From Gallionellales bacterium RIFCSPLOWO2_02_FULL_59_110 (GTDB lineage Bacteria > Pseudomonadota > Gammaproteobacteria > Burkholderiales > Gallionellaceae): 33,942 bases of DNA. Positions 4,666-28,225 of this stretch are shown here, in pieces. Under the pieces are notes generated by a model. The model searched no databases. It saw only the letters and a list, made by a program, of their open reading frames with translations, and had not been told where the DNA came from. Each line of letters opens with the position of its first letter. Position 1 is the stretch's first letter. The translations under genes and the position numbers were made by a program. The DNA is taken from positions 1 to 33,942 of the forward strand of contig MGXA01000104.1 in assembly GCA_001801215.1 (NCBI GenBank), given 5' to 3'.

Positions 4666-5621
4666 TGTACCTGCAACACTTCGGGCTGCGCGAACCGCCT
4701 TTCAGCCTGACTCCCGACACCAGTTTCTTTTTCTCCTGTTCCAGTTATCAGGAGGCGCTCAATACGCTGCTGGTGGCCGCGCGCAACGGTGAGGGTTTTA
4801 TCAAGATTACCGGCGAAGTGGGAACCGGCAAGACGCTGCTGTGCCGCAAATTTCTCGCCACGCTGAATCAGGGATGCCAATCCACCACGCTGATCGGCAC
4901 GCAGGATCAGGCGGTCGATGCACCGTCCGCACCGCGTTTCATTACCGCCTACATCCCCAACCCCTATCTCGAGCCGCGCAGCCTGTTGCTGGCATTGGCG
5001 GGAGAATTCCGCGTGCCGCTGGACAAGGATACCGACCAGCACCAGTTGCTGAAGGGCTTGACGCGCGCGCTGCTGGATTGCGCGCGCAACGGGCAGCGCG
5101 CGCTGGTGTGCCTGGACGAGGCGCAGGCGATGCCGCTGGAAAGCATGGAAGTGCTGCGCCTGCTCACCAATCTCGAAACCGAGAAACGCAAGCTGTTGCA
5201 GGTGGTGTTGTTCGGCCAGCCGGAATTGAATGAACGTTTGCGGCACCACTCGATACGCCAGTTACGCCAGCGCATCAGCTTTCAATACAACCTCCAGGGG
5301 GTGCGCAAGGACGAGATGGAGCGCTATCTGCGCCATCGCTTGGCGGTGGCGCAATATCCCGGCGAAACGCTGTTCGGCAGGGGCGCGGTGGGCAAGCTGC
5401 ACCGCATCACCGGCGGCACGCCCCGGCTGGTCAACATCGTTGCGCACAAGGCGTTGATGCTGGCGTTCGGCGAGGGCAGGCAGCAGGTGTCGCCCAAACA
5501 TATCCGCGATGCGGCAGCCGATACCCCGGAAACGCGCCGCGACTGGCTGCCCTGGGCGCTGGCCTTGACCGGCGCGGCACTGATCGCCTCCCTGGGAAGC
5601 GCGTGGGTGGCTCTACAATGA
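4665..5621 (+). CDS. mshM: MshM, ExeA/GspA-like AAA ATPase
   Basis: MYLQHFGLREPPFSLTPDTSFFF, Walker A GEVGTGKT, Walker B LVCLDEAQ. Confidence 0.92.
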   Translation: MYLQHFGLREPPFSLTPDTSFFFSCSSYQEALNTLLVAARNGEGFIKITGEVGTGKTLLCRKFLATLNQGCQSTTLIGTQDQAVDAPSAPRFITAYIPNPYLEPRSLLLALAGEFRVPLDKDTDQHQLLKGLTRALLDCARNGQRALVCLDEAQAMPLESMEVLRLLTNLETEKRKLLQVVLFGQPELNERLRHHSIRQLRQRISFQYNLQGVRKDEMERYLRHRLAVAQYPGETLFGRGAVGKLHRITGGTPRLVNIVAHKALMLAFGEGRQQVSPKHIRDAAADTPETRRDWLPWALALTGAALIASLGSAWVALQ

Positions 5622-6760
5622 GCGTCATCAACGAGGTGCTCAACCAGCTCGAACAGCGCGGCGCGCCTGCCGCGCCGGAGCAGACCTTGGTGCGCGCCGT
5701 GCCGCAGGGCAAACGCAACCTTGTCCTGCCTTTGCTCGCGGTGGCGCTGGCGCTGGCGGGCGGGGTCGGCGCATGGCAATGGATCCAGATGCGCAAGCCC
5801 AAGGTTGTTGCGGCGAATGCCATGCGGCCTCCGCTTGCCATAGCTGTGCCGGCTCCCGTGTCTGAACCTGTGTCCGCACCGGAGCCGGTCTCCGCCGTCC
5901 CGGCGTCTGTCGATGTTGTGGCCGCTCCGGCCAGCGCCATTGCCGGAAGTGCAGCCCCGCCGGCAGAAATGCTCCCGCCGGCCTCGCGCCTGAGTTCTGA
6001 ATTGAGTTCGGTGCCGCTGCCATCCAGCCTCAGGGAACTAAAGCACGACGCCGGGCCGGGCAGAATGGATGCAGCCACGGTAATGGCGAAGCCATCGGCG
6101 CTTTCCGCCAAGCCGCAGCCGGCCGCCGCTCCGCCAGATGCGCCCGCCTCAGCCCGGCCGTCAAGCGGAACGCCGCCGATGAAGCGGGTCAGCCCGGCGC
6201 AACGCGCCGATGCCGAATTCCGCCAGGCGTTCGCGGCCATGCAGCAGGGGCATAGCGCCGACGCCATCGCGGGATACGAATCGGTGTTGCGTCTAGATGA
6301 GAGTCATGACGCGGCGCGCCAGGCGTTGGTGGCATTGCTGCTGGAAAATAAACGCGGCGCGGAAGCCGAGCGCGTGTTGCAGGAGCGGCTGAACGCCAGA
6401 CCGGGGCATACCGGTTTCGCCATGCTGCTGGCGCGTTTGCAGGTGGAACACGGCGCCGTCGAAGCGGCGCTGGCGACGCTGGAAAAATCCCTGCCGCACG
6501 CCGATGCGCAGGCCGGTTACCAGGCATTTTTCGCGGCATTGCTGCAACGCCTGAACCGCCACAAGGAAGCGATCACGCATTACCAGGCCGCATTACGGCT
6601 TGCTCCAGACAATGGCGTCTGGCTGATGGGTTACGGCATTTCGTTGCAGGCGGTGCAGCGCAATGAGGATGCCGGGGATGCGTTCTGGCGCGCGCTGGAA
6701 TCGAAAACGCTCAACCCGGAATTGCAGGCGTTCGTGCAGTCGAAAATCAAAGAGTTTTGA
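5618..6760 (+). CDS. mshN: MSHA biogenesis protein MshN, TPR repeats
   Basis: MSVINEVLNQLEQRG N-terminus, TM, Pro/Ala-rich linker, C-terminal TPRs; ATGA overlap with mshM. Confidence 0.85.
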   Translation: MSVINEVLNQLEQRGAPAAPEQTLVRAVPQGKRNLVLPLLAVALALAGGVGAWQWIQMRKPKVVAANAMRPPLAIAVPAPVSEPVSAPEPVSAVPASVDVVAAPASAIAGSAAPPAEMLPPASRLSSELSSVPLPSSLRELKHDAGPGRMDAATVMAKPSALSAKPQPAAAPPDAPASARPSSGTPPMKRVSPAQRADAEFRQAFAAMQQGHSADAIAGYESVLRLDESHDAARQALVALLLENKRGAEAERVLQERLNARPGHTGFAMLLARLQVEHGAVEAALATLEKSLPHADAQAGYQAFFAALLQRLNRHKEAITHYQAALRLAPDNGVWLMGYGISLQAVQRNEDAGDAFWRALESKTLNPELQAFVQSKIKEF

Positions 6761-6779
6761 AGTAGGAACGAGTAAAGCT

Positions 6780-6899
6780 AAACCCCCTCCAACTCCCCCT
6801 TGTGCGAGCATCCGCTGCGCGGATTGCCTGCTTGACCCGCTTCAGGGGAAGAGTAAAGCAACTGCTCCTCCCCTGATAAGGGGAGGTTGGGAGGGGTTA
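6780..6899. repeat. BIME-like C/G-rich palindromic repeat, copy A (no nested insert)
   Basis: AACCCCCTCCAACTCCCCCTTG ... CTCCTCCCCTGATAAGGGGAGGTTGGGAGGGGTT; outer C-rich/G-rich inverted arms; comF stop codon TAA lies in its last 3 nt. Confidence 0.8.
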
Positions 6900-7610
6900 G
6901 TGCTTATGCGGCAGCGTTCGCGCCACCACCCACGCCTCGATTTGGGCCGCGCCGCGTTTCTGCACCGCCTCGGCGAGCGCGTTCAGGCTGGCGCCGGTTG
7001 TCAGCACGTCGTCCACCAGCGCGACGCGCCTGCCGTTCAAGTCCATGTCGCAGCAGAACGCATCGCGCATGTTCTTCTTGCGCTCCTTCCAAGGCAGTGC
7101 AGATTGTGGCGGGGTGTCGCGTACGCGACGGCAGGCATGAGTGAGCAGTTCGAGTTCAAGCCTGCGAGCGACTCCGGCAGCGAGGAGTTGCGACTGGTTG
7201 AAGCCGCGTTCGCGCAGTTTCGTCGGATGCAGCGGCATCGGGACGACGCAGTCGGGCAGGCTGTCGATACGGCGCGCCAGCTTGCCCGCGAAGGCATGCG
7301 CCAGCGCGAGCTGTTCGCGGTATTTCATGGCATGGATCAGCTTGTCGAGCGGAAAGGCATAGCCGAATACCGCGGTGGTGCGGGAAAACAGCGGCGGGCG
7401 TTTCAGGCACTGCCCGCATATTTCTCCGCCCGGCGTCGGCAGCGCGCAGCCCGGGCAATGTGCCGCATCGAGCCAGGGCAGAGCACGGTCGCAGGCCGCG
7501 CACCACAGCCCGTCGCGGCTCATGCTGCCGCACAGCACGCAGGGTTGCGTCGGCGCGAATTGCCTGATTTTTGCGCCGATGTTCAAAAAATACCTGCGTA
7601 TAATAGACAA
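6897..7610 (-). CDS. comF: ComF family phosphoribosyltransferase (start codon uncertain, TTG candidates)
   Basis: CVLCG...CPGCALP...CGQC zinc-finger region and PRTase motif VALVDDVLTTGAS. Confidence 0.88.
   Translation of the reverse strand: MSIIRRYFLNIGAKIRQFAPTQPCVLCGSMSRDGLWCAACDRALPWLDAAHCPGCALPTPGGEICGQCLKRPPLFSRTTAVFGYAFPLDKLIHAMKYREQLALAHAFAGKLARRIDSLPDCVVPMPLHPTKLRERGFNQSQLLAAGVARRLELELLTHACRRVRDTPPQSALPWKERKKNMRDAFCCDMDLNGRRVALVDDVLTTGASLNALAEAVQKRGAAQIEAWVVARTLPHKH
7599..7604 (+). promoter_or_regulatory. Candidate -10 box (TATAAT) upstream of bioB
   Basis: Perfect TATAAT 64 nt upstream of the bioB ATG; no convincing -35 seen. Confidence 0.3.
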
Positions 7611-8666: not shown

Positions 8667-8705
8667 GTCGCATTGGTACGTGGAAGACAAGGCGAATAGA
8701 AACTC

Positions 8706-8904
8706 AAACCCCCCTCAATCCCCCCTTGTCAGGGGGGAGGCCAAATCCGGCTCCAGCAATCAGACAAAGCAAACGGAACCGCCGCTAAGACTTGCCCAAG
8801 GCGCGAATACTCCTCCCCTGATGAAACAACTAGCCATTCGACTAGGCTATCAAAAGACGATAGCCAAGTCGCTGGTTATGATAAGGGGAGGCCGGGAGGG
8901 GTTT
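8706..8904. repeat. BIME-like C/G-rich palindromic repeat, copy B, carrying a nested 60-bp hairpin insert
   Basis: AACCCCCCTCAATCCCCCCTTGTCAGGGGGGAGG ... CTCCTCCCCTGAT[60 bp]AAGGGGAGGCCGGGAGGGGTTT. Confidence 0.8.
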
Positions 8905-9255
8905 GCTTTTCTGCCTTACGACAAAAAACTTACTGCGCTTGCCAGAGAAAACCGGAAAAATCCGACACCCGCAGAACAAAAAATGTGGCTTGAGGTATTA
9001 AGCCGCCGCCAATTTTCCAGCTATAAGTTTCTGCGCCAGAAACCCATTGAACATTTCATCGTCGATTTTTACTGTGCAAAACTGGGTTGGGTAATTGAAA
9101 TCGACGGCGACAGCCATGCAGAGCAGCCAAGGTATGACGAAAATCGCACCGCCTTGCTTGAACGTCATGGGTTGACGGTGATTCGATATGGCAATCGTGA
9201 TGTGCTGAATAATATTGCCGGCGTCTACGATGATTTGGCGGGGCGGCTCGGCTGA
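8821..9255 (+). CDS. DUF559 (VSR-like/PD-(D/E)XK-type) endonuclease domain protein; N-terminus runs into repeat B so the start is uncertain (ATG 8821 or 8878)
   Basis: LPYDKKLTALARENRKNPTPAEQKMWLEVL...KPIEHFIVDFYCAKLGWVIEIDGDSHAEQPRYDENRTALLERHGLTVIRY is characteristic of DUF559; TGATG junction with bioF. Confidence 0.85.
   Translation: MKQLAIRLGYQKTIAKSLVMIRGGREGFAFLPYDKKLTALARENRKNPTPAEQKMWLEVLSRRQFSSYKFLRQKPIEHFIVDFYCAKLGWVIEIDGDSHAEQPRYDENRTALLERHGLTVIRYGNRDVLNNIAGVYDDLAGRLG
8823..8882 (-). mobile_element. 60-bp hairpin element, copy 1, nested in repeat B with TGAT at both edges
   Basis: GAAACAACTAGCCATTCGACTAGGCTATCaaaagacGATAGCCAAGTCGCTGGTTATGAT; perfect GGCTATC/GATAGCC tip; repeat A is the matching empty site. 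Confidence 0.7.
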
Positions 9256-10502
9256 TGTTTTCCGATTTGCAAAGAGACTTGAACCAGTGCGCCGCACTTG
9301 GCCTGCTGCGCCAGCGGCGCACGCTGTCCAGCCCGCAGTCGCCGCATATCGTGGTGGACGGGAAGCATTATCTTTCTTTTTGCAGCAACGATTACCTCGG
9401 TCTGGCGAACCACCCGCAGCTCGTCGCCGCGCTGCAACAGGGTGCAGCGCAGTGGGGCGCGGGTGCGGGCGCGGCGCATCTGGTGTGCGGGCATATCGAG
9501 CCGCATCACCGGCTCGAACAGGAACTGGCGGCCTTTGTCGGCAAGCCCGCCGCGCTGCTGTTCTCCACCGGCTACATGGCGAATCTCGGTACGGTGCAGG
9601 CTTTGGTAGGCAAGGGCGACACGGTGTTCGCCGACAAGCTCAACCACGCCTCGCTGAACGACGCGATGCTGCTGTCGCGCGCCGAGGTGAAACGCTATCG
9701 CCATAGCGACATGGCGCAGCTCGCGGCACTGCTCGAACAAACAAAATCCGGGCGGAAGCTGGTCATTACAGATGCGGTGTTCAGCATGGACGGCGACCTC
9801 GCGCCGCTACCTGAATTGCTGGCGCTGTGCGAACAACACGATGCGTGGCTGCTGGCCGACGATGCGCACGGCTTCGGCGTGCTGGGCGAGCAGGGGCGGG
9901 GGTCATTGTTCAACAGCATGCCTCCCATTGGCCAAAAAGAGAAGGGAGAAGGGGGAAGGGAGAAGGGTAACAACAGTGCGCCTTCGCCCTCCCCCCTTCC
10001 CCCTTCCCCCTTCCCGGCGGATTCACCGCGCATCATCTACATGGCGACGCTGGGCAAGGCAGCCGGGGTGTTCGGCGCATTCGTCGCGGCAGAGCGGGTC
10101 GTGATCGATACCATGGTCAATCACGCGCGCAGCTATGTCTACACTACGGCCACACCGCCCGCCTTGGCATGTGCGGTACTGGAGAGCCTGCAACTTATAG
10201 GGCAAGGCGATGCGTTGCGCGAACATCTGTACAAACTGATCGCGCGCCTGCGCGGCGGGCTGGCAGGTTTGCGCTGGGAGCTGATGCCGTCGGATACCGC
10301 GATCCAGCCGTTGCTGGTCGGCGACAATCAGGCGGCGCTGGCATTGAGCGAGGGACTGCGCGAGCGCGGCATCCGGGTTGCGGCGATCCGCCCGCCCACC
10401 GTGCCGCAGGGTACGGCACGCCTGCGCATCACCCTGTCCGCCGCGCATAGCGAAAACGATGTGGAGCAATTGATCGGGGCGTTGCATGAGCTTGCACAGT
10501 AA
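9255..10502 (+). CDS. bioF: 8-amino-7-oxononanoate synthase BioF with a repeat-encoded internal insertion
   Basis: FCSNDYLGLANHP, GAGAAHLVCGH, DDAHGFGVLGEQGRG, ATLGKAAGVFGAF. Confidence 0.95.
   Translation: MFSDLQRDLNQCAALGLLRQRRTLSSPQSPHIVVDGKHYLSFCSNDYLGLANHPQLVAALQQGAAQWGAGAGAAHLVCGHIEPHHRLEQELAAFVGKPAALLFSTGYMANLGTVQALVGKGDTVFADKLNHASLNDAMLLSRAEVKRYRHSDMAQLAALLEQTKSGRKLVITDAVFSMDGDLAPLPELLALCEQHDAWLLADDAHGFGVLGEQGRGSLFNSMPPIGQKEKGEGGREKGNNSAPSPSPLPPSPFPADSPRIIYMATLGKAAGVFGAFVAAERVVIDTMVNHARSYVYTTATPPALACAVLESLQLIGQGDALREHLYKLIARLRGGLAGLRWELMPSDTAIQPLLVGDNQAALALSEGLRERGIRVAAIRPPTVPQGTARLRITLSAAHSENDVEQLIGALHELAQ
9939..10015 (+). repeat. GA/CT palindromic element, copy 1 (inside bioF, in frame)
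   Basis: GAGAAGGGAGAAGGGGGAAGGGAGAAGGG-loop-CCCTCCCCCCTTCCCCCTTCCCCCTTCCC. Confidence 0.85.
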
Positions 10503-10529: not shown

Positions 10530-10629
10530 TTCCCTCTCCCGCCTGCGGGGGATAACCAGCGACTTGGCTGGCGTTGTTTGCCAGGCTAGTCGAATGGCTA
10601 GTAGTTCCATCAGGGTTGGGGAGGGGGAA
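10530..10629. repeat. C/G-rich palindromic repeat, copy C, with hairpin element inside
   Basis: TTCCCTCTCCCGCCTGCGGGGG ... TTGGGGAGGGGGAA flanking hairpin copy 2. Confidence 0.65.
10547..10615 (+). repeat. Hairpin element, copy 2
   Basis: GGGGATAACCAGCGACTTGGCTGGCGTTGTTTGCCAGGCTAGTCGAATGGCTAGTAGTTCCATCAGGG, homologous to the reverse complement of 8815-8888. Confidence 0.8.
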
Positions 10630-10672: not shown

Positions 10673-11548
10673 ATGCACGTTGACGGTTACGGCAGCGGCG
10701 CGCCGCTGCTGCTGATCCACGGCTGGGGGATGCACGGCGGCATGTGGGGCGGCATCGCGGAACGGTTGGCCGAGCATTTCCGCGTGCTGGCGGTGGATTT
10801 GCCGGGGCACGGCTGGAGCAAGACGGGGAAGGGGCAAGAGGGAAGGGGGAAGGGGAAAGACCAGGTTTTACCCTTCTCGCTTCTCCCTTCCCCCTTCTCC
10901 CTCGATGCCATCGTCGATGAATTGTCCTCGCAGTTCGGTGAACCGCTCGCCGTATGCGGCTGGTCGCTCGGCGGGCAGATCGCACTGCGCTGGGCAGCGC
11001 GCGAACCGGAGAAGATAAAACGCCTGGTGCTGGTGGCGAGCACACCGTGCTTCGTGCGCCGGCCGGGCTGGGAATGCGCGATGGCGCAAGAGACGTTGGC
11101 GGAATTTGCCGCCGCGCTGCAACAGGATTATGCGCTGACGTTGCGGCGCTTCCTCGCGCTACAGGTGCGCGGCAGCGATAATGAGCGCGAGCTGCTGGCG
11201 GCGTTGCGCAGTGCGTTATTCAGCCGTGGCGAGCCGGATCTGGGCGCATTACAAGCTGGGCTGGATATTCTGCGCGACTGCGACCTGCGCAGCGCATTGC
11301 CGGGTATCAGGCAACCCGCACTGGTAGTTTGCGGCGAACGTGATACGCTCACGCCGCCGCAGGCCTCGCATTACTTGGCGGCGCAACTGCCGGATGCGCG
11401 GCTGGCTATCATCAAGGGGGCGGCGCATGCGCCGTTCCTGTCGCACCCGGATGAATTTGTGGTGCATGTGGTGAGTTTCATGCGTGATGCGAACTTAAAC
11501 CCCTCCCAGCCTCCCCTTGTCAGGGGAGGAGAATTGGCTTCCCCCTGA
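10673..11548 (+). CDS. bioH: Pimeloyl-ACP methyl ester esterase BioH with internal and C-terminal repeat-encoded segments
   Basis: LLLIHGWGMHGGMW, VCGWSLGGQIAL, GAAHAPFLSHPDEF (alpha/beta hydrolase), position before bioC. Confidence 0.9.
   Translation: MHVDGYGSGAPLLLIHGWGMHGGMWGGIAERLAEHFRVLAVDLPGHGWSKTGKGQEGRGKGKDQVLPFSLLPSPFSLDAIVDELSSQFGEPLAVCGWSLGGQIALRWAAREPEKIKRLVLVASTPCFVRRPGWECAMAQETLAEFAAALQQDYALTLRRFLALQVRGSDNERELLAALRSALFSRGEPDLGALQAGLDILRDCDLRSALPGIRQPALVVCGERDTLTPPQASHYLAAQLPDARLAIIKGAAHAPFLSHPDEFVVHVVSFMRDANLNPSQPPLVRGGELASP
10825..10903 (+). repeat. GA/CT palindromic element, copy 2 (inside bioH, in frame)
   Basis: GGGGAAGGGGCAAGAGGGAAGGGGGAAGGGGAAAGACCAGGTTTTACCCTTCTCGCTTCTCCCTTCCCCCTTCTCCCTC. 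Confidence 0.85.
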
Positions 11549-17707: not shown

Positions 17708-17791
17708 AAGGGGAAGGGATAAGGGGGAAGAGGGAAGGGTAAAACCTTCGGGTCGCAGTTACCCTTCTCCCTTCACTCTTCTCCCTTCTCC
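17708..17791 (+). repeat. GA/CT palindromic element, copy 3 (ftsK-lolA intergenic)
   Basis: AAGGGGAAGGGATAAGGGGGAAGAGGGAAGGGTAAAACCTTCGGGTCGCAGTTACCCTTCTCCCTTCACTCTTCTCCCTTCTCC. Confidence 0.85.
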
Positions 17792-18496: not shown

Positions 18497-19813
18497 ATGT
18501 CAACCGGTAGCCTGTTCGATGCGTCTTCCCCCGCTGCGCCGCTCGCCGAGCGCCTGCGCCCGAAGCATATCGACGAGGTGATCGGGCAGTCGCATCTGCT
18601 GGGCGAGGGCAGGCCGTTGCGCCTGGCGTTCCAGTCCGGCAAGCTGCATTCGATGATCCTTTGGGGGCCGCCGGGCGTGGGCAAGACCACCCTTGCAAGG
18701 CTCATGGCGCAGGCCTTCGATGCCGAGTTCGTGCCGCTGTCGGCGGTGCTGTCCGGTGTGAAGGATATCCGCGAGGCCATCGCGCAGGCGCAGCAGGCGC
18801 TGCAACAGCATGGCCGCCACACCATACTGTTCGTCGACGAGGTGCACCGCTTCAACAAGTCGCAGCAGGATGCCTTTTTGCCGTTCGTCGAGCAGGGCCT
18901 GGTGACCTTCATCGGCGCGACCACCGAAAACCCGTCCTTCGAGGTGAACAACGCGCTGCTGTCGCGCGCCCAAGTGTATGTGCTGCATGCACTGTCGGCG
19001 GAAGAGCTGGGTGCCCTGTTCGAGCGCGCGAAGCAGACTGCACTGGCAGATTTGCAGTTTGATGATGATGCGCGCGAGCGCATCACCGGCTACGCCGACG
19101 GCGACGCGCGCCGCCTGCTGAACGTGCTGGAACAGGTGCAGACCGCCGCGCAGACTGCCGGCGTGAGCAGCATCGACACCAAATTTCTCGACAACACGCT
19201 GGCGCAAAATCTGCGCCGTTTCGACAAGGGCGGCGAGGCGTTCTACGACCAGATTTCCGCGCTGCACAAGTCGGTGCGCGGCTCCAACCCCGATGCCGCG
19301 CTGTACTGGCTGGTACGCATGCTCGATGGCGGCGCCGATCCGCGCTACCTCGCGCGGCGCATCGTGCGCATGGCGTGGGAGGACATCGGCCTGGCCGACC
19401 CGCGCGCGATCCAGCTCACGCAGGATGCCGCGCTGACCTACGAGCGCCTCGGCTCGCCCGAAGGCGAGCTGGCGCTGGCGCAGGCGATCCTCTATCTGGC
19501 CTGTGCGCCGAAGTCGAACGCGGGTTACGTCGCGTATAATGCCGCGCGCGCCTTCGTCGCCCGTGATGGCTCGCGCGAAGTGCCGCTGCACCTGCGCAAC
19601 GCGCCGACCAAATTGATGAAGCAGCTCGATTACGGCAAGGATTACCGTTATGCGCATGACGAGACGGGAGGCTATGCGGTAGGCGAAAATTATTTCCCCG
19701 ACGGCATGCCGGAAGTAAATTTCTATCAGCCGACCGAACGCGGGTTGGAGGCGAAGATTGCGGAGAAGCTGGCGTACTTGCGCGAGCTGGATAAAAAACA
19801 AAAGAAAAATTAG
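18497..19813 (+). CDS. rarA: Replication-associated recombination protein RarA/MgsA
   Basis: [53 protein letters not shown]. Confidence 0.93.
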
Positions 19814-19840
19814 CCACAGAGAACACAGAGATCACAGAGA
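19812..19840 (+). repeat. CACAGAG repeat, left copy
   Basis: AGCCACAGAGAACACAGAGATCACAGAGA, inverted relative to 20277-20307. Confidence 0.75.
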
Positions 19841-19845
19841 AGATC

Positions 19846-20233: not shown

Positions 20234-20307
20234 GCCACAGAGAACACAGAGAGAGGCAAAGGCATATGTGATTGGTTTTCTCTGTGATCTCTGTGTTCTC
20301 TGTGGCT
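20234..20307 (-). repeat. CACAGAG repeat, right copy (itself an inverted pair)
   Basis: GCCACAGAGAACACAGAGAGAGG ... TTCTCTGTGATCTCTGTGTTCTCTGTGGC. Confidence 0.75.
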
Positions 20308-20309
20308 AA

Positions 20310-28014: not shown

Positions 28015-28225
28015 CCCCCATCCCCCTCCTAACCTCCCCCTTGAAGGGGGAGGAACCTGGAAGCTAACGCATTAACGAAGCTCGGCATACCCTTCCTAAC
28101 CTCCCCCTTGAAGGGGGAGGAACCTGGCTCCCTCCCCTTCAAGGGGAGGGTTGGGGTTAACCAGCGACTTGGCCGCTGTTTTTTAGCGGCTTAGTCGAAT
28201 GGCTAGTTGTTTCATCAGGGGATGG
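28015..28225. repeat. C/G-rich palindromic repeat cluster, copy E, with 34-bp direct repeats
   Basis: TCCTAACCTCCCCCTTGAAGGGGGAGGAACCTGG at 28027-28060 and 28094-28127, third partial palindrome and hairpin copy 3. Confidence 0.8.
28153..28221 (+). repeat. Hairpin element, copy 3
   Basis: GGGGTTAACCAGCGACTTGGCCGCTGTTTTTTAGCGGCTTAGTCGAATGGCTAGTTGTTTCATCAGGGG. Confidence 0.85.

Follow-up and report, generated by a model that had tools for sequence, protein, structure and literature searches.

An in-frame palindrome in bioF belongs to a dispersed family of paired heptamer arrays found in core genes of a Gallionellaceae bacterium

Introduction

How does the gene for 8-amino-7-oxononanoate synthase come to carry a GA/CT palindrome inside its reading frame? 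The gene, bioF, lies in a 33,942-nucleotide stretch of DNA (the window) from a member of the Gallionellaceae whose nearest named relatives include Gallionella and Sideroxydans. An original prediction, made from the letters of the window, held that the palindrome is a mobile element tolerated within the enzyme. Protein-coding palindromes are described as a peculiarity of Rickettsia in the title of Ogata 2002, as listed in PMC10969869. A search that mostly covered literature outside subscription journals found no paper on such elements in Gallionella.

Results

The palindrome lengthens BioF without breaking its frame

The identity of BioF is supported by the NCBIfam equivalog TIGR00858 bioF (475.7 bits; cut-off 426.5) and by its AlphaFold model, which matches the BioF structures 5vnx, 5jay and 1dje with TM-scores of up to 0.94 on the target. 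BioF structures are the best solved relatives of the query, and their alignments break at query residues 219-256. It is the sole BioF found in the genome, the one other enzyme-like match being a homologue at 37% identity. A single open reading frame runs unbroken across the palindrome (9939-10016, 78 nt), in which a 29-nt purine arm and a 29-nt pyrimidine arm enclose a 19-nt loop (Table 1). The arms and loop of the predicted ∼77-bp element are both present, within an open frame of 415 residues. The arms show 89% complementarity across 27 nt, and the predicted RNA fold reaches -50.3 kcal/mol, with a z-score of -3.9 relative to shuffles that keep dinucleotide content.

Table 1. Coordinates of the genes and GA/CT palindrome copies in the window
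Feature	Position	Strand	Remarks
bioF, 8-amino-7-oxononanoate synthase, 415 aa	9255..10502	+	TIGR00858 over cut-off; fold match
Extra BioF segment F219-D256, 38 residues	9909..10022	+	Same-genus BioF comparison; 6-residue connector in relatives
bioF palindrome, left arm	9939..9967	+	Pure purine; 4 imperfect 7-bp units GAAGGGA/GAAGGGG
bioF palindrome, loop	9968..9986	+	TAACAACAGTGCGCCTTCG; family core elsewhere GGGTAAAACC...GGTTTTACCC
bioF palindrome, right arm	9987..10016	+	Inverted pyrimidine heptamer array; pure pyrimidine 9987-10015
bioH, pimeloyl-ACP methyl ester esterase, 294 aa	10664..11548	+	TIGR01738, 235.8 bits (cut-off 206.95)
Second palindrome copy, in frame in bioH	10826..10902	+	Encodes approximately KTGKGQEGRGKGKDQVLPFSLLPSPFS
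Third palindrome copy, intergenic, ftsK-lolA spacer	17710..17791	+	RNA fold z = -4.9 (dinucleotide shuffles)

The insert falls, as predicted, where related proteins have a short connector: the distance from GRGSL to SPRII is 38 residues here and 6 in empty relatives, with a clean gap in most relatives on alignment. The net gain is ∼96 nt or ∼32 residues, the palindrome making up the 9939-10016 part. An ordinary BioF loop was rejected, since most relatives have short connectors. The 30 nt immediately 5' of the palindrome (9909-9938, FNSMPPIGQK) are also missing in short-connector relatives and are possibly the leftover of an older insert.

The two further copies predicted in the window are also present, one in bioH, in the loop after DLPGHGWS (RNA fold z = -3.8 against dinucleotide shuffles), and one in the ftsK-lolA spacer. 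A search of the window for known RNA families found one tRNA and nothing else. In the AlphaFold model of BioF, pLDDT drops below 50 solely at residues 221-246, exactly at the insert, which fits a surface loop; in BioH, low confidence is limited to residues ∼51-79 and the C-terminus, the remainder being confident. These models suggest that both inserts form disordered loops. Compared with the nearest named relative, which itself carries other inserts at the BioF and BioH sites, dN/dS is ∼0.19 for bioF (dN 0.107, dS 0.56) and ∼0.28 for bioH (dN 0.155, dS 0.54); both genes are therefore under constraint (purifying selection). The BioF of another locus (L128) looks frameshifted, but the underlying DNA includes consecutive Ns as well as a stretch that is duplicated.

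The GA family consists of facing heptamer arrays

The element is repeated elsewhere, as expected: 52 BLAST matches resolve to ∼22 places in the 2.8-Mb genome. Its architecture is that of two facing tandem arrays of a 7-bp unit around a short core, with a total length of ∼70-95 bp. Many GA copies have in common arms of 3-5 imperfect units (GGGAGAA/GGGGGAA) and the inner pattern GGGTAAAACC...GGTTTTACCC, the centre of which varies. The 31 paired elements listed are convergent and inverted, GA copies having the purine arm first, and the encoded peptide changes with frame and family. Heptamer units include GGGAGAA, GATTGAG, GGGAAGT and others. Three features go beyond the original prediction: the building of the arms from heptamers, the presence of other families at the BioF site in other species, and the copies that lie in frame in BioH, DnaE, MurB and MutL.

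A strict period scan of 412 kb of this genome gives 17 arrays of period 7, 4 of period 14 and 0-1 at any other period, against 0 arrays in shuffled DNA; the arrays are therefore not due to chance. At a looser threshold, the same 412 kb yields 20 period-7 arrays, and 392 kb of bio regions from 20 relatives, taken as 20-kb stretches, yields 22; the complete genome G063 has 2, together with 3 of period 9. No period-7 array was found in two outgroup genomes from other families of the order (200 kb each). In the Gallionella DNA sampled, 7 is the sole period that is enriched. The GA family occurs in 26 of the 61 sampled genomes of the genus. Outside the genus it is sporadic: at a stricter cut-off, 8 of 250 order genomes match, including this genome and one more of the same genus.

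The AAAACC/GGTTTT core occurs in 7 of 34 non-GA inserts, compared with 0-3 for words of the same composition; this is suggestive at most, and a universal core for all families was rejected. Strong selection for stop-free elements was likewise rejected: noncoding GA copies have 2.9 of 6 frames open against 2.3 in shuffled sequence, a weak effect explained by the TAA that the core often carries. DNA of this type is easily tolerated because a 7-bp unit gives the same heptapeptide in three frames and because purine-only arms are stop-free on both strands.

Five core proteins of one genome carry the family in frame

Pfam analysis of the ORFs spanning copies places the GA family in frame in BioF, BioH, DnaE, MurB and MutL of this single genome, with domains on both sides of the copy in the last three. 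The MurB copy lies between FAD_binding_4 and MurB_C, the MutL copy between the DNA_mis_repair and MutL_C domains, and the DnaE copy between the NTPase and finger domains. Genome-wide searches return one full-length match each for DnaE, MurB and MutL, and the insert-bearing genes therefore seem to be the working copies. With inserted frames open and enzyme motifs intact, the inserts appear to be translated. About 5 of the 22 copies lie in conserved genes, the remainder being in spacers or doubtful ORFs. A stop in the MutL match of G009 lies outside the element, which in that genome can be read through without interruption.

The same sites hold other families in sister species

Across sister species, the corresponding positions are either empty or occupied by other palindrome families, mostly other heptamers; the closest genomes compared are different species, and most are MAGs. 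At the BioF site, most species retain the 6-residue connector and four (G018, G023, G032 and G003) hold inserts of unrelated sequence; further named relatives have inserts at this site or near residues 39 or 170. Near residue 170 these are other inserted sequences in L087, L089 and L096, and near residue 39 in L098 and L107, all from other Gallionellaceae. The BioH loop is the busiest site, spanning at least 78 residues in 24 of 30 same-genus loci (the shortest being 68). Its units include GGGAGAA, GGGAAGT, GATCGAG, ACAAGAG, GAGGACA and TTACGTC, and it also holds non-heptamer palindromes (for example GTCGGGATTTATCCCGAC, VGWVERSDTH repeat). The DnaE site is filled in 12 species of the genus (GA, GATTGAG and other types) and empty in 15. 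At the MurB site almost every species differs, as it does at the MutL linker, and the ftsK-lolA spacer contains different heptamer elements among relatives. Nested elements occur in BioH of L037 and L044 and in MurB of L281, and the original connector at filled sites is usually replaced and not split.

On a tree built from BioF, DnaE and MurB with insert columns removed, the DnaE site requires at least 9 changes between filled and empty states. Near neighbours are unlike: G016 is filled and its sister G017 empty, G024 and G025 also differ, and G003 differs from G011 and G015. Within a genome, family labels set by eye agree across sites in 29 of 62 comparisons, where permutation gives 11.3; the p-value of ∼2e-4 is optimistic because the permutation ignores relatedness.

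Discussion

Origin of the inserts

The bioF insert probably belongs to a palindromic repeat, non-autonomous and dispersed, that spreads within Gallionella genomes and persists inside a gene when a copy keeps the frame and falls in a linker or a loop at the protein surface. Under this explanation, copies would be made from palindromes elsewhere in the genome and would enter sites that can accommodate such an element or are already occupied by one. Copying may be host-assisted, through template switching during replication or repair via heptamer microhomology, at times overwriting an older element; a dedicated transposase is somewhat less likely. The reuse of sites, the nesting and the agreement of families within a genome are consistent with elements being copied from one another, whether by transposition or by template switching. 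Of the mobility originally proposed, dispersal and turnover are well supported, while a transposition step is not: comparisons of copies and sites between species tied no target-site duplication, fixed end or matching transposase to the elements.

The strongest competing view, plausible if on the doubtful side, is that the elements are old residents at fixed positions, among which heptamer sequence spreads by gene conversion, slippage or template switching between dispersed arrays, so that one family is overwritten by another and no transposition takes place. It accounts for the occupation of the same positions across the genus and for the tendency of one family to prevail per genome. It is also consistent with the left flank of the lolA element, common to different families in G015 and G027, with a GTAAGTG array nested within a GATTGAG element of G011, and with the recurrence of the AAAACC/GGTTTT core in some non-GA families. 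However, close relatives of filled species have nothing inserted at the DnaE and BioF sites, and the filled species are scattered on the tree, which argues that whole elements come and go; the inner core common to dispersed GA copies, and the many GA copies at places with no known older element, also speak against fixed residence.

A selected function for the hairpin or the encoded loop, such as mRNA stability, a folding pause or a protein contact, is unlikely. The RNA hairpins are very stable and the same sites recur, but sequence, length and peptide are wholly different between species at one site, sisters lack the insert, and the loops are predicted to be disordered.

Mobilization as REP-like palindromes by a RAYT (Y1 transposase, PF01797) is most improbable, even though 34 of the 41 genus members sampled have Y1_Tnp proteins. 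This genome has many copies and one borderline Y1 match (23.6 bits against a cut-off of 23), the complete genome G063 has GA elements and no Y1 match, and G006 and G036, which also have none, carry other heptamer elements in BioH. Moreover, neither a conserved 5' tag nor fixed ends were found among the copies.

An equally small chance attaches to purely local, non-mobile expansion of a chance heptamer by polymerase slippage. Unit numbers do vary, and among long repeat units heptamers rank first in most bacterial genomes surveyed, slippage having been proposed (a genome survey cited in PMC4679880), but slippage leaves the inverted second arm unexplained and is disfavoured because the copies are dispersed and the same inner core stands at unlinked loci. 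That the insert is removed by splicing or skipped by translational bypass before the protein is finished is the least probable reading: the stable hairpins and the tolerance of the insert by apparently sole copies of essential genes would suit it, but the alleles read keep the frame and are stop-free across the insert, neither of which bypass would need, and although an open frame was required at allele extraction, so that this result is partly built in, the genome searches too list almost every same-genus match as free of stops.

An extension of the preferred explanation, copying of a dispersed repeat, can be put forward tentatively. Gallionella may harbor arm-swapping palindromes, in which a common AAAACC...GGTTTT core is flanked by lineage-specific paired 7-bp arrays; an undescribed mechanism would copy them time and again into a small, fixed set of loops in essential proteins. 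If this doubtful reading were true, core enzymes would bear a fast-changing family tag.

Comparison with known repeat systems

The Rickettsia palindromic elements, to which the bioF insert had been likened in concept, are ∼150 bp long and encode a conserved peptide (Ogata 2000, 2002, as summarized in PMC10969869). The likeness is borne out by the five core proteins: in both systems repeated palindromes lie in frame in unrelated housekeeping genes, with several families per genome and inserts predicted to be compatible with fold and function. Unlike these elements as that source describes them, the Gallionella elements are ∼70-95 bp long, have heptamer-array arms and encode no conserved peptide; their hosts are free-living betaproteobacteria, and families differ between species at the same positions.

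The GGGAATC repeats of Xanthomonas (Rehm 2015, PMC4692102) resemble the Gallionella elements: G-rich units of 7 bp stand in tandem, many arrays face each other as convergent inverted pairs (70-75 per genome), and the repeats are dispersed over the genome, with no linked mobile elements found. They have been studied mainly as G-quadruplex repeats and are under-represented in coding regions (intragenic 7-11%). The Gallionella unit, however, is not GGGAATC, and that paper does not report the Xanthomonas repeats as inserts that keep the frame of core proteins and replace one another at set positions. On this comparison the Rickettsia elements (PMC10969869) are the functional analogue and the Xanthomonas repeats the structural one.

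Other systems are more distant. The TAACTGA repeats of Beggiatoaceae (PMC4679880) share a dispersed heptamer unit but are direct repeats upstream of start codons, with one unit sequence that is almost never inverted. REP/REPIN-RAYT palindromes and MITEs are likewise small and non-autonomous, whereas the Gallionella elements were found without fixed ends, target duplication or a matching transposase. The whole Gallionella unit is an inverted repeat, and the absence of visible ends or duplication is to be read from sites with no close empty counterpart. The tandem repeats of Borgs (PMC9879509) also create disordered protein regions but are direct tandem repeats of archaeal extrachromosomal elements and not dispersed palindromes.

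Protein-coding palindromes thus extend to free-living bacteria, with at least five core enzymes affected in one genome and turnover among sister species at the same positions. DnaE, MurB, MutL, BioF and BioH provide a natural insertion series in which the spread of such elements, their tolerance and the effect of the peptide are testable. Odd loops in metagenome proteins, such as EKGEGRREKG or PLPPSPFS, can be repeat DNA.

Other repeats in the window

Several further repeats were observed. A second dispersed repeat of ∼68 nt (AACCAGCGACTTGGCTGGCG...GGCTAGTAGTTCCATCAGGG) lies at 10548-10615, 28153-28220 and, on the minus strand, 8814-8878; the BioH insert of G016 (L044) has a related repeat nested within it, and another is present in the ftsK-lolA spacer of G007 (L184). 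A third palindromic family, of the type CCCCCTTGTCAGGGGG, occurs at 6775-6909, 8701-8914, 11492-11540 and 28019-28155; the PPLxKGGRGDL inserts that other species carry in BioF are of a related kind. Upstream of serS, a perfect 32-nt inverted repeat (TTAGCCACAGAGAACACAGAGATCACAGAGAA) occupies 19810-19841 and 20278-20309, with a 436-nt spacer. Inserts in other genes of the window were examined by alignments, the gap-based tblastn scan being insensitive. In L176, L177 and L184, the gene matching 5603-6760 of the window has a repeat-like coding insert with the repeat peptide SGQATSTRPLVLSEVEGSGQ. Finally, a CCTTCTA heptamer array (2577-2604) lies within the ORF at 2405-2971, where it reads AFYLLPSAFC near an N-terminal signal-like segment.
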